Virus record (IMG/VR): IMGVR_UViG_3300023223_001313
Location: 1 to 20,950 of that record
Length of the DNA stretch: 20,950 nt
Direction: 5' to 3' (one strand)
DNA from: a virus
Every line of letters begins with the position of its first letter. Position 1 is the first letter of the stretch. The notes beneath the pieces were generated by a model. That model worked only from the letters and a program-made list of their open reading frames with translations. It was not told the DNA's origin and did not search any database. Of this stretch, positions 3,709 to 20,950 are shown one piece after another. The translations under genes and the position numbers were made by a program.

Positions 3709-5028
3709 TTATGCCGGATCGATCTGTGTAATCGGATCACCAGCAGCCGTACTTACAGCCGCAGTCCAAGCAGCAGTAGAATCATTTTCCTGATACACAG
3801 TCATTGTACCACCAACGATATCTACTCGATTACGAACAGCCCGCAGTGCACTCGTAACATCTCGTCCGCCATTGCTGCCTCCAGCAATGTTTCGACCAAG
3901 CAAAACATCAGCGAATTCTTCTCCCAAATCTGCTGCAGCGGCTGCCGCAGTCATCACATTTGCACCCATTGCCTGAGTGTTAGAATCAACACGCCCAGCA
4001 ATCAAAGCATTCACTGCACTGCCCAACCAGTTACCAACATCTACGCGTCCGGTTGTGACGGTGATTGCCAAATCACCGAAATTAGTTGGTGCGCTTGCTG
4101 CTAGCAATGCAGAATCCGTTCCGCGCATTGCAGAACCCGCAACTCCAGTGACATCATCACTAATTGCGCGAATTGCCTCAGCCAAACTCACATTGTTAGC
4201 TGGATCAACACTTGCAGGATACGTAGGAATACCCACGGTACCCTCAAGTGTGTTAATCAACTGTTTCAAATACTGCATTATTGTGTCCGCACTGGTAGGA
4301 TCACCGGCTGCAGCAGCATCGGCAAGTGCGCCTAGTACTGAAGCAAGAGCGGCTGAATCTGTACCACGCATATCAGTATTGGTCGTTGTTGTGTCTACTA
4401 GCTGAATATCTGTTCCCGCCAAGTCCAAAACCGTTGTGGGATTTTCAACGTTTGCCCAATCAATTCCCGCATTACCTGCTGCCGTTATGTCCAAAGTACG
4501 CGCTGCTACCGTAGGAGCCAACCGGCTCGATACATCAGCATCTAAGCGGCTGTCCAAATCCAATCCACCCGCATCTGAAAGTGGCAAGCCACCTGCAGCA
4601 TCGGCAGCAGCATTCGGCAGTGCTGTCATACCTCCCCGCACAGCATCTCGCAGATCAACAGCAAGGATCTGCACCTTTAATGGAGCCGCGACCGCATTAT
4701 TAGCAGAGGCTATCACCAATGCCAACGACACTTCGTCCACACCTGTTGCAAATGCCAAATCGGGAAAATCACACCGATAGACGCCCGGCATATTCGTATC
4801 ATCAACTAGGATAAATCCACCATCAGCATGCGCAGCCGAAGCAGAAGCTAGAGTGATAAGTGTAAGGTCTACACGAGCCGCACCTTGACGTGCGTAGGAA
4901 GCCGAACCACCTGTTTCGATATCACTGAACAACAATCCTGTTACTGGTTCACCAGGTGAGGTTGCACTTGCGTCTTGTACAATGTAAAAGTAGACTGATA
5001 CATTGGTCTTTCCAGCGGTAACAATCAT
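3709..5028 (-). CDS. Tail-fibre/baseplate-like structural protein (439 aa)
   Basis: The N-terminal ~120 residues form a beta-rich module (VSVYFYIVQDA, ASYARQGA, GGFILVDDTNMPGVYRCDFPD, VAAPLKVQIL). It resembles modules repeatedly seen in environmental phage tail or receptor-binding proteins. The middle is Ala/Asp/Thr-rich linker, with the motif MRGTDSA present twice (about 220-226 and 301-307). The second copy leads into LLAASAPTNFGDLAITVTTGRVDVGNWLG. The C-terminal ~60 residues (GGRDVTSALRAVRNRVDI..GGTMTVYQEND..TAAWTAAVSTAAG) look like a conserved terminal module. The ATG overlaps the upstream stop (ATGA), and GGAGG sits nine bases before it. The fibre-like role is based on resemblance and modular low-complexity architecture; receptor binding is inferred. 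Confidence 0.7.
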   Translation of the reverse strand: MIVTAGKTNVSVYFYIVQDASATSPGEPVTGLLFSDIETGGSASYARQGAARVDLTLITLASASAAHADGGFILVDDTNMPGVYRCDFPDLAFATGVDEVSLALVIASANNAVAAPLKVQILAVDLRDAVRGGMTALPNAAADAAGGLPLSDAGGLDLDSRLDADVSSRLAPTVAARTLDITAAGNAGIDWANVENPTTVLDLAGTDIQLVDTTTTNTDMRGTDSAALASVLGALADAAAAGDPTSADTIMQYLKQLINTLEGTVGIPTYPASVDPANNVSLAEAIRAISDDVTGVAGSAMRGTDSALLAASAPTNFGDLAITVTTGRVDVGNWLGSAVNALIAGRVDSNTQAMGANVMTAAAAAADLGEEFADVLLGRNIAGGSNGGRDVTSALRAVRNRVDIVGGTMTVYQENDSTAAWTAAVSTAAGDPITQIDPA

Positions 5029-5759
5029 GCGGAGAATCCTCCATGTAATCGATTAAAGCCAGCGCGCATGTGATGCGGAAGCTGGAGCAATTCTGTAATA
5101 ATACCTGATACTGCTTCGGCAATCTCTGCCGCGTACGTAATGTGGGTTTGGCTCGCGGAGAAACTAAAATCAACAGTAGTATCTTCGCCAGCTTGAGCTT
5201 CACACTCAACATGATCACCCATGCTGCTATCACCAATGAGTGTAAATCCTGAACCAGCAGTAACAGCGGTCGCACCTGAATATGTCATAACACAACCAAA
5301 TGTTGCATTGTTCACCGCATCGGCAAAGCTCGCTAGTGTATGAGAAGGAGCCGTGCCTGTCGCCAACGTCCCACCTGATTGCACGACCGCATCCGCACCG
5401 TTCGTTCCACCCGTGTTAATATTGGCTACATTCTCAACTTCAACAGCACATGAAGTCATATCATCGCCGCCAAAGTCAATAACGATATTCGTCCCGCTTG
5501 GACTGGCATCTAAACACCGAAAGAACCAGGATCGTTGAAACGAACTCACGGAAATATTGACTTCAAGAGACATTGTGATACCAGATAGTGTAACATCGGG
5601 CGTTGGAGGATCAGCATTCTGAACGTTTTGTGCTCGGATAGCAGCTAAACCTAGCTCACTCGCTGTCAATGCCGCAGAAAGCCCAAACGTGTACGAGTCA
5701 AGATCGGTATCATCTTTTGCATCAACCAGAGTCGTGAAATCACCAACGGCCAGCGCCAT
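5025..5759 (-). CDS. Beta-rich phage structural protein of unknown role (244 aa)
   Basis: The protein is rich in Ser, Thr, Gly, Ala and beta-strand-forming residues and has few lysines, as in many phage surface or tail proteins. Strand-like segments include ITMSLEVNISVSSF, TNIVIDFGGDDMTSCAVEVE, and GFTLIGDSSMGDHVECEAQ followed by DTTVDFSFSAS. The overall pattern recalls beta-sandwich proteins found in virion gene clusters, but no named family is certain. The start lies two bases beyond the preceding gene's stop, with GGAGA about ten bases upstream. Its end overlaps the fibre-like gene by four bases (ATGA), so the two are likely made together. A binding or particle-decorating role is a guess. 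Confidence 0.65.
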   Translation of the reverse strand: MALAVGDFTTLVDAKDDTDLDSYTFGLSAALTASELGLAAIRAQNVQNADPPTPDVTLSGITMSLEVNISVSSFQRSWFFRCLDASPSGTNIVIDFGGDDMTSCAVEVENVANINTGGTNGADAVVQSGGTLATGTAPSHTLASFADAVNNATFGCVMTYSGATAVTAGSGFTLIGDSSMGDHVECEAQAGEDTTVDFSFSASQTHITYAAEIAEAVSGIITELLQLPHHMRAGFNRLHGGFSA

Positions 5760-5760
5760 C

Positions 5761-6243
5761 CTAGAGTTCTCCAGTCCGTTTCAGCATCCGGATGTCACAG
5801 GCCGCGATCTGGCGGTTGTATCGCGCTACAGTATCTACTGTGAGTGTCTTACCCCGTATCGGATGCGCATCAGGGTTGTCGCGAAAGCGGATAAGATCAG
5901 CTTTGCGAGCCGCGATGGCTACGTTCCGCGATGAGTCCAGTACACGTAGTGAGTCGTGAAACGCACCGCGTTTCCAAATCGCCGGTTCTTCCTCAGCAAG
6001 AATCGACCGCCCGATCTGCGCCTCCCACCGCGTGCGCATCGACACCGACAGCAGTTGCCCGTAAGCATACCACCCGAGAACTCGATCCTGTCGCAGGTCG
6101 CGAATCTTTTTGACGTGGCGCATGATGCCAGTAAGCACACATTTGTCGATCAGTTCGTCATTAGGATGGAGGCGAGTGAAGAACGATTCAACTTCAGTTG
6201 GCTCACCATCAATGATCACGCGATCGCCTAAACTCAACGGCAT
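5761..6243 (-). CDS. Hypothetical protein in structural operon (160 aa)
   Basis: No family is recognised. The N-terminus (GDRVIIDGEPTEVESFFTRLHP) looks like a short beta-rich fold. The rest is alpha-helical and rich in Arg, with WYAYGQLLSVSMRTRWEAQIG and RNVAIAARKADLIRFRDNP. The ATG follows the upstream stop with no gap and is preceded by AGGAGAG at nine bases, which supports this start. Its place between a small membrane protein and two virion-type genes suggests a head-tail or connector role, but size and context are the only arguments. Confidence is high that it is coding and low on function. Confidence 0.65.
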   Translation of the reverse strand: MPLSLGDRVIIDGEPTEVESFFTRLHPNDELIDKCVLTGIMRHVKKIRDLRQDRVLGWYAYGQLLSVSMRTRWEAQIGRSILAEEEPAIWKRGAFHDSLRVLDSSRNVAIAARKADLIRFRDNPDAHPIRGKTLTVDTVARYNRQIAACDIRMLKRTGEL

Positions 6244-11222: not shown

Positions 11223-12656
11223 CTAGCTCCACCCTGGCAAGCCCAGTTCGTCCCCAGGCCGCGTCATTGGCAAGAAGTTCCCACGAGAATCCACGCCAGG
11301 ATCTCGGTTCATCGACCCGTGAATCGGCAGATCCTGCTGCTCCGCGGCCTTCAGCGCCCCCTCCAGCATCTTATCCCAGAACTCCATAACCCCATACCGC
11401 AGGCATTCAGCCGCGTGATCGTCCGTTCCCTTGACCTTGATATCATTGGGCTTGTTGACATCCCGTGGCAGCTTCGTCAGCGTACGCTTGAGATGCGGGG
11501 CTCGACCCTGCCACATACGTAGTTGGCCGCGCGAGATAAGCAGGGCAATCCGCGCCCAGCCTGACACCCGGTCGTTGTTGGCCCGCGTAAACCACACCCC
11601 CTTTTCGTTCAGCATGGTCGGGATACTCTGGTTATTGTTGCGCTCAGTCTCCTTGAATATATCCGGTGACAGCACGCTAAAGATCACCTTGTTCGTCCAC
11701 CCGTTCTCCTTCTCGGTATGCTGCACCATCTGAGCAATGCTGTCAGTGGTCATCCCCGCGCCGTATAGCTCGCTGGCAACATCCACAAACCCCAACGTTG
11801 GGTACACGATCAAATGCATAACGCAGGTGGGATCTCCCCAGCCGTAATCCATGCACCGGATGATGTAGTAGTTTCGATCAGCCAGTACCGCAGGGACTTC
11901 GATTGGGTTCTTTGGGAAGTACTGTCCTCGGAACTTGCCCCACTTGCCCTCAAGGTACGCATCGGCCAGCACGCCCTCGGTCTGAGCAATGCCCGCAATA
12001 TACTCTTCCTTGTTCGGCAGCTTGGGATTGTCGTACACTGTGCTGGGAATGAACTGGCGGGTGATGCTTAGATTCTTGTTCTTCCAGGGCACTTCGATCT
12101 TCTCGATCTTGTAAGGCACATGTCCCTTTTCTTCATCAATGAACCGGTCGAACACCCATGCCATGCCCTCGCCGCCAGGATTCGTCGCGGCTCGGATAAT
12201 CGCAGGCAGGTTCCCGTCCTTACTACGGTTACGGAGAAACATGTACTCGTACTGGTACTTGGTGAACTCGGTCAATTCTTCGAATTCGATCAGGTCAAAT
12301 TCGAACGACCGGAACTTTTCGATATCCAACTCGTGCTCGGCATATCCCATCCAAGTCTTCGCGCCACTACTCCATTGCCAGTACCACTTGTCCTTGGATT
12401 CGTACCAACGGGCACCAGGGTCCACCAACGGGTAGATCAGCTTCTGACGGTCGATCAGTTCGCGCAGATACTTCGACTCGCGCCGGAGAATGATACCCTG
12501 GTGCTTCGGATTCTGCATACGGTAAAGCGGCAGTTGAATCAGCGCCTCCGTCTTGCCGCCGCCAACTGCACCACCGTACAGCACTTCACGTGATGTCGCT
12601 GTGAGAAAATACGTTTGGGGGCCAGGATTCGGCTCCCAGATCACCTTCCGCTTCAT
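11223..12656 (-). CDS. terL: Terminase large subunit, ATPase and nuclease (477 aa)
   Basis: This is the packaging motor that moves DNA into the procapsid and cuts concatemers. The ATPase half shows Walker A GGAVGGGKT (residues 28-36), a Walker B-like FDLIEFEEL (120-128) and coupling motif ATNPGG (157-162). The nuclease half shows candidate metal ligands D270 (RCMDYGWGDP), D332 (SPD) and D412/D413 (TDDHAAECLRYG). In Walker B the usual Asp before the catalytic Glu is Glu126. ATG at 12656 overlaps the MazG stop by one base (TGATG); a GTG at 12659 would add one residue and give a four-base overlap. Length is normal for the family. Confidence 0.93.
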   Translation of the reverse strand: MKRKVIWEPNPGPQTYFLTATSREVLYGGAVGGGKTEALIQLPLYRMQNPKHQGIILRRESKYLRELIDRQKLIYPLVDPGARWYESKDKWYWQWSSGAKTWMGYAEHELDIEKFRSFEFDLIEFEELTEFTKYQYEYMFLRNRSKDGNLPAIIRAATNPGGEGMAWVFDRFIDEEKGHVPYKIEKIEVPWKNKNLSITRQFIPSTVYDNPKLPNKEEYIAGIAQTEGVLADAYLEGKWGKFRGQYFPKNPIEVPAVLADRNYYIIRCMDYGWGDPTCVMHLIVYPTLGFVDVASELYGAGMTTDSIAQMVQHTEKENGWTNKVIFSVLSPDIFKETERNNNQSIPTMLNEKGVWFTRANNDRVSGWARIALLISRGQLRMWQGRAPHLKRTLTKLPRDVNKPNDIKVKGTDDHAAECLRYGVMEFWDKMLEGALKAAEQQDLPIHGSMNRDPGVDSRGNFLPMTRPGDELGLPGWS

Positions 12657-17496: not shown

Positions 17497-17677
17497 TCGC
17501 CCCCACCTTCCAGATTTCAATGACAGTGAGCGTGATACTGACCAAATGCCGATCCTTAAGTATCTCAGTATGGATCGTCACTAAATGTATGACAGTTTTG
17601 AGTGGCCCCTGCATATACAGTATTTCGGGCTTTTGATTCTTCCAAGTGAATTCAACCTTGAAGATGTTATCAACCAT
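17456..17677 (-). CDS. Small hypothetical protein between polymerase and ATPase (73 aa)
   Basis: The ATG at 17677 overlaps the polymerase end by eight bases (ATGGTTGA), and GAGG/GAAGG lies just upstream. The open frame could extend to 17719, but this would run deep inside the polymerase gene. The product has alternating beta-prone stretches (NIFKVEFTWKNQ, PEILYMQGPLKTVIHLVTIH, HLVSITLTVIEIWKVG) and looks like a small beta-sheet protein. No family is recognised. Tight coupling with polymerase and ATPase suggests a replication accessory, but this is context alone. Confidence 0.6.
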   Translation of the reverse strand: MVDNIFKVEFTWKNQKPEILYMQGPLKTVIHLVTIHTEILKDRHLVSITLTVIEIWKVGANGEESISIEPVES

Positions 17678-20369
17678 CCTTCGCCTCTTTCCAGTTCTCC
17701 AACGGTACAGGGGCCTCAATCGGATACTCCATCCCCCACTGATTGACGATCATGCTTCGCTGAATGCCTTCCAGTGCTTCATCCACCAACCGTCCTGGGC
17801 CTCGCGGGATCTGGATCACCAATTCATCATGCACATGAATCTTCGGCCGCGCCAATTCCAATGGCATATTATCCTTGATGTTCTTTAACCCCAACGCCAA
17901 CACCCATGCTCCCATATCCTGTGGGAAGTAGCTTAGACCCTCATTCAGGATCTTCTGAATCAACCGCCCTTGCCGGTCCAGCACATACATGTTCCACTTG
18001 CGCACACGCCCGGTAGGGCTAACCAACTGGCGGCTGCTCCGTAGTGCGTCCCGCGTACTCGTATGCCAGCGACTAAGGCCCGGCCAAATCTTCTTCAGCA
18101 ACATCTGTACCAGCATGTTGCCCTGTTGCACACTAACGGCAATTCCCTTATCAGTGGCAAATGCCTTGCTCGTCATCTCCTTCGACAACTGGCTCCCCTG
18201 CCCACCATACATCCCACCGTATACCCAAATCTTGCACTGTTCCCGGTGTAGCATGATATCCATCCCATGCGCATGTTGCTGCAGTACCGTATGCGTGTCA
18301 ATTGTCCCGTGACGCTCGTTGCCCGGCCAATCAACAGGGATCACGAAAGCGTCCAGCATCTGTTGATCCTGCGATACTACCGCGACGTTCCGCGTTTCGA
18401 TCTGCGAGTAGTCAGGCGCTACGAAGTAGAATCCGAACTCAGGCACGATGATATACCGGTGCTTAACAGGGATATTCTGCAGATTCGTCCCCACCTGCAG
18501 CAACCCTTCTTTGCTCGCCACTCGACCACTCACTGTCCCCCACGGGTCAAACACACAATGCAGCATCCCATCGTCATCTGGCTGCAGCCGCAGCATCGTT
18601 GTTAGATCCGCACCGGCCTTGCTGAACGCCAGTACCGCTTCTACTGCCGCGCGCTGCTCGCCATTCAGCCAGTCCTTGTCTAGCAAGGGTGCCAACTGCG
18701 ATGCCCGTGTGGTCGTCTTACCGTCAAACTTGCGGGGTGAAATCCGCAGGCCCTTGTACAGAATGTCCTTGAGTTGGTCCGGTGACTCGGGATTGATTTC
18801 CTTCCATCGCATGACCTTCTTCTTGCCACTGCATGTGCGGCAGACTGGCATTAACTCCTTGAGTTCGCCTACAGTATAGTCACCTAGATCAGCCTTAAGC
18901 AGCATCCCACTATTCTTGCTCGTGGTCATTCCTACGTAATCCGCCTTTTTCTTCGGAGTCATGTTCAACCCAGCGCACGTTGCGCACTTCTTCGCGCCTC
19001 GGCAACATGTGCACTGCGGAAAGGTCTGGAACAAGTGCGGCTTGTCGAACCGGCGTAGCTTGCTCTCCACCACACTACGGGCGAGCGTCTGAAACTCCTT
19101 ACGATACCGCTTATAATCCCGGCCCAACGTAACTGCTGCCTCTTCCCGAAGCTCCTCATTAATCAACACCCCGCTCCATTGCATTTCCAGCAAATCATAC
19201 AGCAATCGATGATCATGCTCGCTAACTTCATCCAGTCCGCGCAATTTTAGCTGCTCTCGCTGGGGCTTGTAGGCATCGGCTGCTACACATGTGTCTAACC
19301 CACAGTAAATCTTCGGATCGTGGTCTACCAACCATTTGTGGTACGGATATGCCGTCCACCAACTGGCGATGGCCGGGCTCAGATTCTTCTGCAGCGCACC
19401 ACCGTGGATAATATGATGCCCACCCCCAGTATCAAAATGCGGCAATTCGATCTTGATTCCCATCTTCCAGAAAAACGTCCAGTCATGGGCGGCATTGTGC
19501 GCAACCTTGACCACTCGACTCGACTTCAACAGTCGCTCCATTGGCCCTGCGCACCACGGCTCCCATGCGAACGTGTGCACTTCGCTAGCCCCTACCAGCG
19601 CAACGATCTTGTACGGAGAAGACTCCGTGTCAATCGATACTACGTGTTCATCGCGAATTAGCTTGTCGATGAAATCGCTTAGTAGGTCATAGCGGTTTAC
19701 GAACCACTCACGTTCGACCGGGAATTCATGCGTACCTGCTACGAGTGCACGAGCCTTCTGGAAGTCGCGAATGCTCAGCGGGTTCCAGGAAAACTGACGT
19801 GCTACTGCAGCAGGGTGGTACGTAGGAAGCACCCACACGACACCCTTGCCTGAGATGGCATGATAGTAATCCTCCACGCTCTGCATATCATTCCCGTACT
19901 GGAATACACTGCCGCGCCATGCGCCGATGCGGGACTTTTCTGCAGTGGCAGTCTGCTTAGTCTCGTCGTCGCTATAGGTCGGCGGTGCTGGTAGCGTTGG
20001 AGCAATCCACGCCAACGGGTTGTTCCCCATCGGCATGATCACTCGTGCACCGGCATCGACGGCCCGGCGCAGTTCCTGTTGCATCAACGTCTTCCCCCAC
20101 TCACGATCCTCCCATGTGTGGCGGCTGAACTTGTCCCCAGGTGCGCGGACGGGTACCGCGTTAACGATCCGCACGCTGCTGCGCGAGATGCTGGCTGCAT
20201 TGAGAATCGCATCCCACATCTTCCCAGCCCGGCCAACCAACGGCCGACCCTGCTGCATCTCTACTTCGGCTGGTGACTCGGCTACGACAACGATCTCCGC
20301 ATCCAATGGTCCCTCGTAAGGAACAACTCGCTTACCGGTCGGAGAGACTGAAGGGAGTACGTCCATCAT
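17670..20369 (-). CDS. Family A DNA polymerase with N-terminal UDG-like domain and 3'-5' exonuclease (899 aa)
   Basis: This is the phage replicative polymerase. Residues 15-215 form a family 4 uracil-DNA-glycosylase-like domain (AESPAEVE..GRPLVGRAG at 30-49, RIVNAVPVRAP near 67-77, LPTYHPAAVAR at 181-191). The domain contains no cysteine, so it cannot hold the usual 4Fe-4S cluster. A DEDDy exonuclease follows, with D247/E249, D296, Y355 and D359. The polymerase domain has motif A DYSQIE (653-658), motif B R709-K713-Y717-Y721-G722 and motif C HDE (847-849). Three CxxC pairs (453/456, 462/465, 510/513) lie in an insertion between exonuclease and palm. There is no 5'-3' exonuclease. The layout recalls SPO1-type polymerases. 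GGAG six bases before ATG supports the start. Confidence 0.93.
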   Translation of the reverse strand: MMDVLPSVSPTGKRVVPYEGPLDAEIVVVAESPAEVEMQQGRPLVGRAGKMWDAILNAASISRSSVRIVNAVPVRAPGDKFSRHTWEDREWGKTLMQQELRRAVDAGARVIMPMGNNPLAWIAPTLPAPPTYSDDETKQTATAEKSRIGAWRGSVFQYGNDMQSVEDYYHAISGKGVVWVLPTYHPAAVARQFSWNPLSIRDFQKARALVAGTHEFPVEREWFVNRYDLLSDFIDKLIRDEHVVSIDTESSPYKIVALVGASEVHTFAWEPWCAGPMERLLKSSRVVKVAHNAAHDWTFFWKMGIKIELPHFDTGGGHHIIHGGALQKNLSPAIASWWTAYPYHKWLVDHDPKIYCGLDTCVAADAYKPQREQLKLRGLDEVSEHDHRLLYDLLEMQWSGVLINEELREEAAVTLGRDYKRYRKEFQTLARSVVESKLRRFDKPHLFQTFPQCTCCRGAKKCATCAGLNMTPKKKADYVGMTTSKNSGMLLKADLGDYTVGELKELMPVCRTCSGKKKVMRWKEINPESPDQLKDILYKGLRISPRKFDGKTTTRASQLAPLLDKDWLNGEQRAAVEAVLAFSKAGADLTTMLRLQPDDDGMLHCVFDPWGTVSGRVASKEGLLQVGTNLQNIPVKHRYIIVPEFGFYFVAPDYSQIETRNVAVVSQDQQMLDAFVIPVDWPGNERHGTIDTHTVLQQHAHGMDIMLHREQCKIWVYGGMYGGQGSQLSKEMTSKAFATDKGIAVSVQQGNMLVQMLLKKIWPGLSRWHTSTRDALRSSRQLVSPTGRVRKWNMYVLDRQGRLIQKILNEGLSYFPQDMGAWVLALGLKNIKDNMPLELARPKIHVHDELVIQIPRGPGRLVDEALEGIQRSMIVNQWGMEYPIEAPVPLENWKEAKDG

Positions 20370-20619
20370 TGCTGGCTCCGTGCTGGATAAGGTAGAGATG
20401 GTAGCAACCGATGCGACCGTTGACTGAAACTAGCGTGCCTTGAACGCTGAAGCATGCCTGCTCGCGGGCTTGGGCAAATGCACGATTTTGGAAACCTGTG
20501 CGAACAGCTACTGCGACCAAACCAACAAGTACTAGTAGCACCGTTGCAACTGCTGCACGCGCTACTCGCTGCCACGCCTTCTGATTGTCGTTCCCGCTAT
20601 TGTAATCATAGGGCTCCAT
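20332..20619 (-). CDS. Small single-pass membrane protein upstream of polymerase (95 aa)
   Basis: The start at 20619 has AGGAG seven bases upstream, whereas the longer frame to 20649 would run into the tRNA-like element. A polar N-terminus of 18 residues precedes a hydrophobic helix (about 19-39, VARAAVATVLLVLVGLVAVAV). A short domain with two cysteines (C56, C72: ACFSVQGTLVSVNGRIGCYHLYL) follows, which could form a disulfide if outside the membrane. The gene overlaps the polymerase start by 38 bases. No family is recognised. It could be a holin, a spanin-like or a superinfection protein, with nothing to decide between them. Confidence 0.65.
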   Translation of the reverse strand: MEPYDYNSGNDNQKAWQRVARAAVATVLLVLVGLVAVAVRTGFQNRAFAQAREQACFSVQGTLVSVNGRIGCYHLYLIQHGASNDGRTPFSLSDR

Positions 20620-20640: not shown

Positions 20641-20707
20641 GTGCCCCAAGCGGAATCGAACCGCGAAGCCAGTGAAGGGAAAGAAACTGGCTCACCCTGG
20701 TGGGGCA
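20641..20707 (-). tRNA. tRNA-like element with full acceptor and T-arm but abnormal centre (67 nt)
   Basis: Read on the minus strand, TGCCCCA (20707-20701) pairs perfectly with TGGGGCA (20648-20642) as a seven-base acceptor stem. GCGG-TTCGATT-CCGC (20664-20650) is a canonical T-arm placed one base before the 3' acceptor strand. C73 would be the discriminator, and no CCA is encoded. The centre is not normal: no D-arm pairs, and a six-base stem GCCAGT/ACTGGC closes a 12-base all-pyrimidine loop (TTCTTTCCCTTC) instead of a seven-base anticodon loop. It may be a degenerate tRNA, a D-armless tRNA or a tRNA mimic. No anticodon is assigned. Confidence 0.45.
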
Positions 20708-20725
20708 GGACGAGGTAGGAGCGCT

Positions 20726-20748
20726 GGTAGCTACCCCTACCCCTACAC
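20726..20748. repeat. Palindrome and short C-rich direct repeat upstream of tRNA-like element
   Basis: GGTAGCTACC (20726-20735) is a perfect ten-base palindrome. It runs into CTACCCCTACCCCTACACC on the plus strand, that is, repeats of CTACCC with a six-base period. The element lies in the 145-base gap between the partial right-end gene and the membrane protein gene. It could be a protein-binding site or a spacer; no promoter boxes were found around it. Confidence 0.35.
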
Positions 20749-20768
20749 CTAATCTTCCCTGCGATTAG
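20749..20768. other. Small hairpin across the stop codon of the right-end gene
   Basis: CTAATC (20749-20754) pairs with GATTAG (20763-20768) around an eight-base loop. The structure contains the TAA stop of the partial gene. There is no U-run after it on the minus strand, so it is not a classic terminator. It may be chance. Confidence 0.25.
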
Positions 20769-20950
20769 ATGCCCGGTACTGTAGTTGCCGGTGAACTCCC
20801 GACTCCAACTACTACTCCTGGTACTCCGCTGGACCCCTTCACTGCAGCGGAACGAATCCGCTTCAACGTCCGAAATCCCCGGTTATCCTCCCCACCTTCG
20901 GCACTCAACTGCTTGCCGATCAGTGCCGGGACATTACCCTTGGCGGTGCC
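20765..20950 (-). CDS. C-terminal end of an unknown protein (5' end outside window)
   Basis: The frame is open from the right edge to TAA at 20765 and gives 61 residues. The first 40 are basic and mixed (VPALIGKQLSAEGGEDNRGF, then RTLKRIRSAAVKG). The last 22 are a low-complexity Gly/Val/Ser/Pro/Thr tail (SSGVPGVVVGVGSSPATTVP) that looks disordered. No family can be named from this part. It is the first gene seen of the minus-strand cascade and is separated from the polymerase block by the tRNA-like element. Confidence 0.55.
   Translation of the reverse strand, partial: GTAKGNVPALIGKQLSAEGGEDNRGFRTLKRIRSAAVKGSSGVPGVVVGVGSSPATTVPGI

Follow-up and report, generated by a model that had tools for sequence, protein, structure and literature searches.

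A tRNA-like acceptor/T-arm element in the DNA polymerase operon of a tRNA-rich phage family: a possible anticodon-less punctuation mark

Introduction

The punctuation of messages by tRNAs is classic in mitochondria, and acceptor/T-arm minihelices can be bound by several tRNA enzymes. The tRNA-like domain of tmRNA has an acceptor and a T-arm with no D-stem, and bacterial RNase P usually prefers an RCCA end. Hairpins consisting of an acceptor stem, a T-stem and a T-loop are established model substrates of RNase P (McClain, Guerrier-Takada and Altman 1987, reviewed in PMC11143913), and several phage RNAs are cut by host RNase P, i.e., the C4 antisense RNA of P1/P7, the M3 RNA, and T4 gene 32 mRNA (PMC11143913). 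Known bacterial tRNAs are all canonical, and a D-arm-less tRNA can function in E. coli after one mutation (PMC11551756).

Here we describe a tRNA-like element in a virus record of 20,950 bases, the whole of which we call the window, together with elements at the same site in related phages. Like D-arm-less mitochondrial tRNAs and the engineered mini HisT (PMC11551756), the window element has an acceptor and a T-arm without a D-arm, plus one hairpin in the middle; unlike them, it has no 7-nt anticodon loop, and its relatives have no anticodon arm. The combination of an acceptor and a T-arm without a D-stem also recalls tmRNA, but the window element has C3-G70 rather than G3.U70 and no tag reading frame, and ARAGORN called no tmRNA in the window. 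A ~12-bp stacked helix capped by a T-loop is the known minimal RNase P substrate, and the elements of two relatives (G001 and G003) are exactly so, with nothing inserted. The phage elements differ from the model substrates in being natural, in lying within an operon, in lacking an encoded RCCA, and in being only predicted substrates. The role of substrate, documented for C4, M3, and T4 gene 32 transcripts, is likewise a prediction here. To our knowledge, no report describes any of these three as an intergenic acceptor/T-arm module that a phage family has retained.

Results

A tRNA-like element lies upstream of the DNA polymerase gene

The window comes from a podophage-like genome and encodes a terminase, a P22-like portal, an amidase, a dNMP kinase, an AAA ATPase, and a family A DNA polymerase, with nearly all genes on the minus strand. 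Its family comprises ~50-kb podophage-like genomes; the relatives are labelled G001 to G008. On the minus strand, the order is upstream gene, tRNA-like element, small membrane-protein-like gene, and DNA polymerase (Table 1). The polymerase is fused to an N-terminal uracil-DNA-glycosylase-like domain, and the polymerases of the relatives align with it over nearly their full length. Elsewhere in the window, 16 nt within a coding gene (8040-8025, minus strand) match part of the fluoride riboswitch consensus exactly, almost certainly by chance.

An initial annotation had described a tRNA-like element at these coordinates, which hold on the minus strand, and was largely right about what is there. 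All seven acceptor pairs are Watson-Crick, as in the 7-bp acceptor stem of a tRNA, and the T-loop is an exact match to the GGTTCGATTCC consensus. The annotation had called both arms exact; compared with canonical tRNA (RF00005, TTCRANN loop on 5 bp), however, only four of the five T-stem pairs form, the outermost being C.U. As it had noted, the middle lacks a D-arm, and an 8-nt linker is all that stands in its place. The linker is followed by a hairpin, AGCCAGT-TTCTTTCCCTTC-ACTGGCT, whose 12-nt loop is indeed all-pyrimidine, but whose stem has seven Watson-Crick pairs rather than six (eight including a G.U pair in the predicted fold); a single T separates it from the T-arm. Instead of a 5-bp anticodon stem carrying a 7-nt loop with U33, the element thus has a 7-bp stem and a 12-nt loop, and no decoding loop. 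The discriminator-like end reads C, or A-C if the acceptor is taken one base shorter, and the encoded 3' end is C-U-A, the sequence ending ...GCACT.

Table 1. Features of the window and of the corresponding site in relatives
Feature	Position	Strand	Remarks
Family A DNA polymerase, UDG-like N-terminus	17670..20369	-	anchor for finding relatives
Small membrane-protein-like gene	20332..20619	-	ATG (20619) 22 nt downstream of element; AGGAG at 20631-20627
tRNA-like element	20641..20707	-	acceptor stem, 8-nt linker, hairpin, T-arm, discriminator-like C
Acceptor stem 3' strand TGGGGCA	20642..20648	-	20648-20642 pairs with 20707-20701
T-arm CGCGG-TTCGATT-CCGCT	20649..20665	-	4 pairs + C.U mismatch, consensus loop; core GCGG-TTCGATT-CCGC (20664-20650)
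7-bp hairpin, 12-nt pyrimidine loop TTCTTTCCCTTC	20667..20692	-	
8-nt linker CCAGGGTG in place of D-arm	20693..20700	-	
Acceptor stem 5' strand TGCCCCA	20701..20707	-	
Second strong hairpin	20712..20743	-	immediately 5' of tRNA-like element
Hairpin overlapping upstream gene's stop codon	20745..20772	-	
Upstream gene, 3' end	20765..20950	-	rest beyond window edge; stop codon 20765-20767; best coding score among six frames; homologous to same-place gene in six relatives
G004 element	directly after upstream gene		TCGCCAG-ACGGAAGTTGGAATCTT-GCAGG TTCGAAT CCTGC-CTGGCGA
G007 element	directly after upstream gene		GTACCGG-ACGGAAGTTGGAACCTT-GTGAG TTCGAAT CTCAC-CCGGTAC
G001/G003 element	directly after upstream gene		13-bp acceptor/T-arm minihelix TTCGGCGAGTAGG-TTCGACT-CCTACTCGCCGAA, then six T

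The 67-nt element has a fold stability of z = -2.6, and the 153-nt intergenic region is unusually stable (z = -3.2), with none of 200 shuffles as stable. The pair probability of the acceptor is ~0.43 in a 165-nt context and drops to near zero in contexts of 241-371 nt, because alternative pairings compete, strongly so in longer stretches with coding flanks. In dinucleotide shuffles of the window, a T-loop with a T-stem of at least four pairs and a 7-Watson-Crick-pair acceptor arose in 33 of 16,944, and when a hairpin of 6 bp or more between the stems was also required, in three of 16,944; these numbers are optimistic, the module having been defined after the element was seen. Given that post hoc definition, the shuffle count alone would not settle a non-chance origin.

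The element is not a callable tRNA

ARAGORN found no tRNA in the window element at default thresholds in bacterial, intron, or mitochondrial mode. A local Rfam scan returned sub-threshold matches only (tRNA-Sec reached 16.7 bits; gathering score, 47), and in the whole-window scan canonical tRNA (RF00005) was not listed, its gathering threshold not being reached. Plastid-ycf2 5'UTR (RF04354) gave a weak match of 19-24 bits (gathering score 65.7) on the opposite strand, antisense to the tRNA-like 3' half of the element; this match reflects generic tRNA-likeness.

A second unusual element occurs elsewhere in the family. On the minus strand of L127 at ~4753-4690 (G008 ~11989-12052), a 61-nt tRNA-like element follows a stop codon and consists of an acceptor stem, a 9-nt linker, an arm with the loop GTCGCAC (U33, CGC, A37), and a T-arm, with no D-arm. 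It is a candidate for a natural D-arm-less tRNA or for a further mark of the same kind as the window element. In G003 and G001, a T-arm CCTAGG-TTCAAAT-CCTAGG lies outside the tRNA array (L109 minus strand 215-233 and L110 6499-6517), accompanied by a small hairpin and a short acceptor that contains a bulge. Another candidate D-arm-less tRNA, at L109 6455, was rejected, since it reads as a tRNA-Thr of normal length whose acceptor has one mismatched pair.

Could the window element be a functioning, non-standard tRNA without a D-arm? Such a molecule works in E. coli after one mutation (PMC11551756), and the 61-nt element of G008 does have a plausible 7-nt anticodon loop. In the window, however, the 12-nt pyrimidine loop offers no 7-nt anticodon loop, the relatives have no anticodon arm at this site, and known bacterial tRNAs are all canonical (PMC11551756). 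We regard this explanation as highly improbable.

Relatives carry an acceptor/T-arm module at the same site

Exact-pattern DNA searches and single-protein searches found no close relatives. Relatives from a first terminase alignment were only ~30-34% identical, and 860 kb of their DNA contained no such module. A terminase-motif pattern yielded contigs in which identity is ~44% for the terminase, ~50% for the portal, and 40-41% for the polymerase; a polymerase alignment added further relatives. When the upstream gene's homologues in six relatives were combined into a profile, the window's upstream ORF scored best among 403 ORFs (E = 0.002, against 1.6 for the next), the match aligning over the conserved C-terminus.

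At the site after the stop of the upstream gene, which is small, and upstream of the DNA polymerase, G004 and G007 carry 49-nt elements with an acceptor and a T-arm, and G001/G003 carry the bare minihelix (Table 1); no anticodon arm is present in the relatives' elements at this site. In G003/G001, an SPFH/stomatin-like membrane protein gene (L111 ~4760-5980), judged by eye from its translation, lies between the minihelix and the polymerase. In three of the seven lineages (G002, G006, and G008), the strong hairpins found there carry no T-loop, and a strong hairpin follows the upstream gene in all seven. Apart from these, the family DNA examined outside ARAGORN tRNA calls contains only a handful of T-arm elements whose acceptor pairs well.

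What the window, G004, G007, and G001/G003 have in common is a T-loop on an acceptor/T-arm stack of ~12 bp (pairs formed: 11 of 12 in the window, 12 of 12 in G004 and G007, 13 in G003). The anticodon region, the discriminator base (position 73), and pair 3:70 are not common to the four. Beyond the T-loop consensus, the window element shares no sequence with the 49-nt type, a covariance model built on the 49-nt type fails to detect it, and the relatives have nothing at this site that corresponds to its 7-bp hairpin with the pyrimidine loop. The window element is tied to the relatives' elements by place and acceptor/T-arm structure, not by sequence.

The lack of any specific common sequence would fit a chance fold in the window, unrelated to the relatives' syntenic elements, and patterns expected once in 5,000 would surface in a large scan. 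But the window element occupies the exact site of the other lineages' module, and such a module arises per 200-nt site in only 12-52 of 20,000 shuffles (0.06-0.26%), a per-site chance of ~0.1-0.3%. We therefore consider chance a poor explanation, with little probability.

A remnant of an attachment site copied from a host tRNA, one of the options raised in the initial annotation, is scarcely credible. Integrating elements often leave 3' tRNA fragments (PMC9897764), but the 5' acceptor strand is present here too. The window encodes no integrase, as the annotation had observed, and tyrosine and serine recombinases (PF00589 and PF00239) are absent from all eight records, i.e., the window and those of seven relatives, which are mostly incomplete. 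The annotation had also proposed comparing the 3' half with host tRNAs; its pattern GCGGTTCGANTCCGCNTGGGGCA, with two free positions, had no match in an exact-pattern scan of genome_contigs (84,980 species).

The stems of the module change in a compensatory manner

Related phages had been suggested as the place to look for compensatory changes, and loss of the stems at homologous loci as grounds for abandoning the idea; the stems proved to be conserved in structure. Between G004 and G007, all 12 pairs are intact although seven of the 12 have changed on both sides, so that both stems show compensatory change at syntenic positions. Acceptor pairing had not been selected for in these two elements, both of which were found by the T-arm alone. 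Meanwhile, 16 of their 17 linker bases and the whole T-loop are identical. When the window, G004, G007, and G003 are taken together, 47 of 48 cells pair (97.9%) and nine of 12 pairs show double changes, a covariation inflated by the fact that stem pairing was partly a selection criterion for the elements; with the partner strand slid, pairing in this comparison falls to 43.8% or less.

The linker of the 49-nt elements contains a D-loop-like motif, AAGTTGGAA, seen in 1.2% of shuffles, which we treat as a lead only. Their similarity to the 3' half of a family tRNA-Leu falls short of significance, shuffled linkers scoring as high in 121 and 255 of 1,000 cases, and no sequence resembling their linker plus T-arm was found in genome_contigs.

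These changes bear on whether a phage tRNA gene, copied from an array into the intergenic space, is simply decaying there and losing its D- and anticodon arms. Copies are available, since several family members have 30-33 tRNAs, other odd tRNA-like pieces occur elsewhere in the family, and the pieces between the stems differ among lineages. Yet decay would not be expected to keep 12 of 12 pairs through seven double changes with 16 of 17 linker bases fixed, nor to leave four lineages with an intact stack in one shared position. Decay is thus unlikely, though it deserves more weight than the other alternatives, and the initial annotation's view that random decay does not account for the element is supported.

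The element might instead mimic a tRNA, or serve as a decoy, for one of the proteins that act on tRNAs (a synthetase, EF-Tu, the CCA-adding enzyme, a modification enzyme, or an anticodon nuclease). Several of these can bind minihelices, and the hairpin loop of the window element is unusual. However, the relatives lack any anticodon arm, which disfavours the decoy for tRNA-cutting enzymes that had been envisaged, and neither pair 3:70 nor position 73 is conserved, so the elements preserve the identity of no one synthetase. We rate a mimic or decoy as very improbable.

The strong hairpin after the upstream gene in seven of seven lineages would also suit an element that ends or protects that gene's mRNA, as a terminator or as a barrier to exonucleases; the shape of the T-loop would then be incidental or would help to protect the message. 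The G001/G003 minihelix followed by six T has a textbook terminator shape, and the 61-nt element of G008 also follows a stop codon. On the other hand, the U-tract of an intrinsic terminator is found in G001/G003 only, being absent after position 20641 in the window and after the elements of G004 and G007, and a plain terminator leaves the T-loops of four lineages unexplained. Overall, this role seems rather improbable.

The family is rich in tRNA genes

Three relatives of ~47-51 kb, G002 (L107), G003 (L109), and G007 (L125), have 33, 30, and 30 predicted tRNA genes, respectively, which cover most isotypes, a very high density for the genome size. Their arrays span about 4-6 kb, and the window phage may carry such an array beyond the right end of the window. 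The canonical tRNAs of the family mostly lack an encoded CCA: 85 of 115 end in C74-T75.

Discussion

We tentatively favour, at somewhat less than an even chance, the reading that the DNA polymerase operon contains an acceptor/T-arm module derived from a tRNA, kept so that its shape is recognised by host tRNA-maturation enzymes, most likely for cutting by RNase P. Of the four roles offered in the initial annotation, whose interpretation is partly supported overall, a processing signal appears to fit best, because the relatives keep the acceptor/T-arm stack at the site with compensatory changes while the part between the stems is free to change. A shared stack with a variable anticodon region, discriminator, and pair 3:70 points to a reader that recognises shape, and the variable parts are those needed for aminoacylation or decoding. 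The 30-33 tRNA genes of three family genomes give a source, and the end ...GCACT in the window resembles the C74-T75 end of most family tRNAs. From these comparisons we infer descent of the element from a phage tRNA, and its recognition and cleavage by RNase P.

In the proposed mechanism, host RNase P would cleave the polycistronic transcript so that T20707 becomes a new 5' end, and RNase Z or exonucleases, which trim the 3' side of tRNAs, would remove what follows about 20642-20641. Cutting would separate the upstream gene's message, and the downstream message would then begin ~22 nt before its start codon. A further idea, that a leader CUCCU hides the ribosome site until cutting frees it, was dropped; a 14-bp upstream hairpin outcompetes that pairing.

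Several observations weigh against a processing mark. First, no T-loop is present at the site in three of the seven lineages. Second, longer folding contexts favour other pairings. Third, the window element has no sequence tie to the 49-nt type, and its pyrimidine-loop hairpin stands alone. Although the ~12-bp stack capped by a T-loop is of the minihelix type cut by RNase P, the 3' RCCA of RNase P substrates is missing (the ends are C-U-A in the window and A-U-U in G004, G007, and G003). The absence of an encoded CCA weakens the processing reading, yet the same 85 of 115 family tRNAs likewise end without it.

On a broader view, which we hold more loosely still, this tRNA-rich phage family may have reduced a tRNA to an anticodon-less punctuation element between two replication genes, maintained by compensatory evolution, such that host tRNA-maturation enzymes set mRNA ends. 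If true, these phages would reuse a tRNA purely as a cutting mark, with the anticodon arm absent, kept by compensatory change at one operon site, and the 67-nt element, the 49-nt elements, and the bare minihelix would form a substrate series for asking what RNase P needs in nature.
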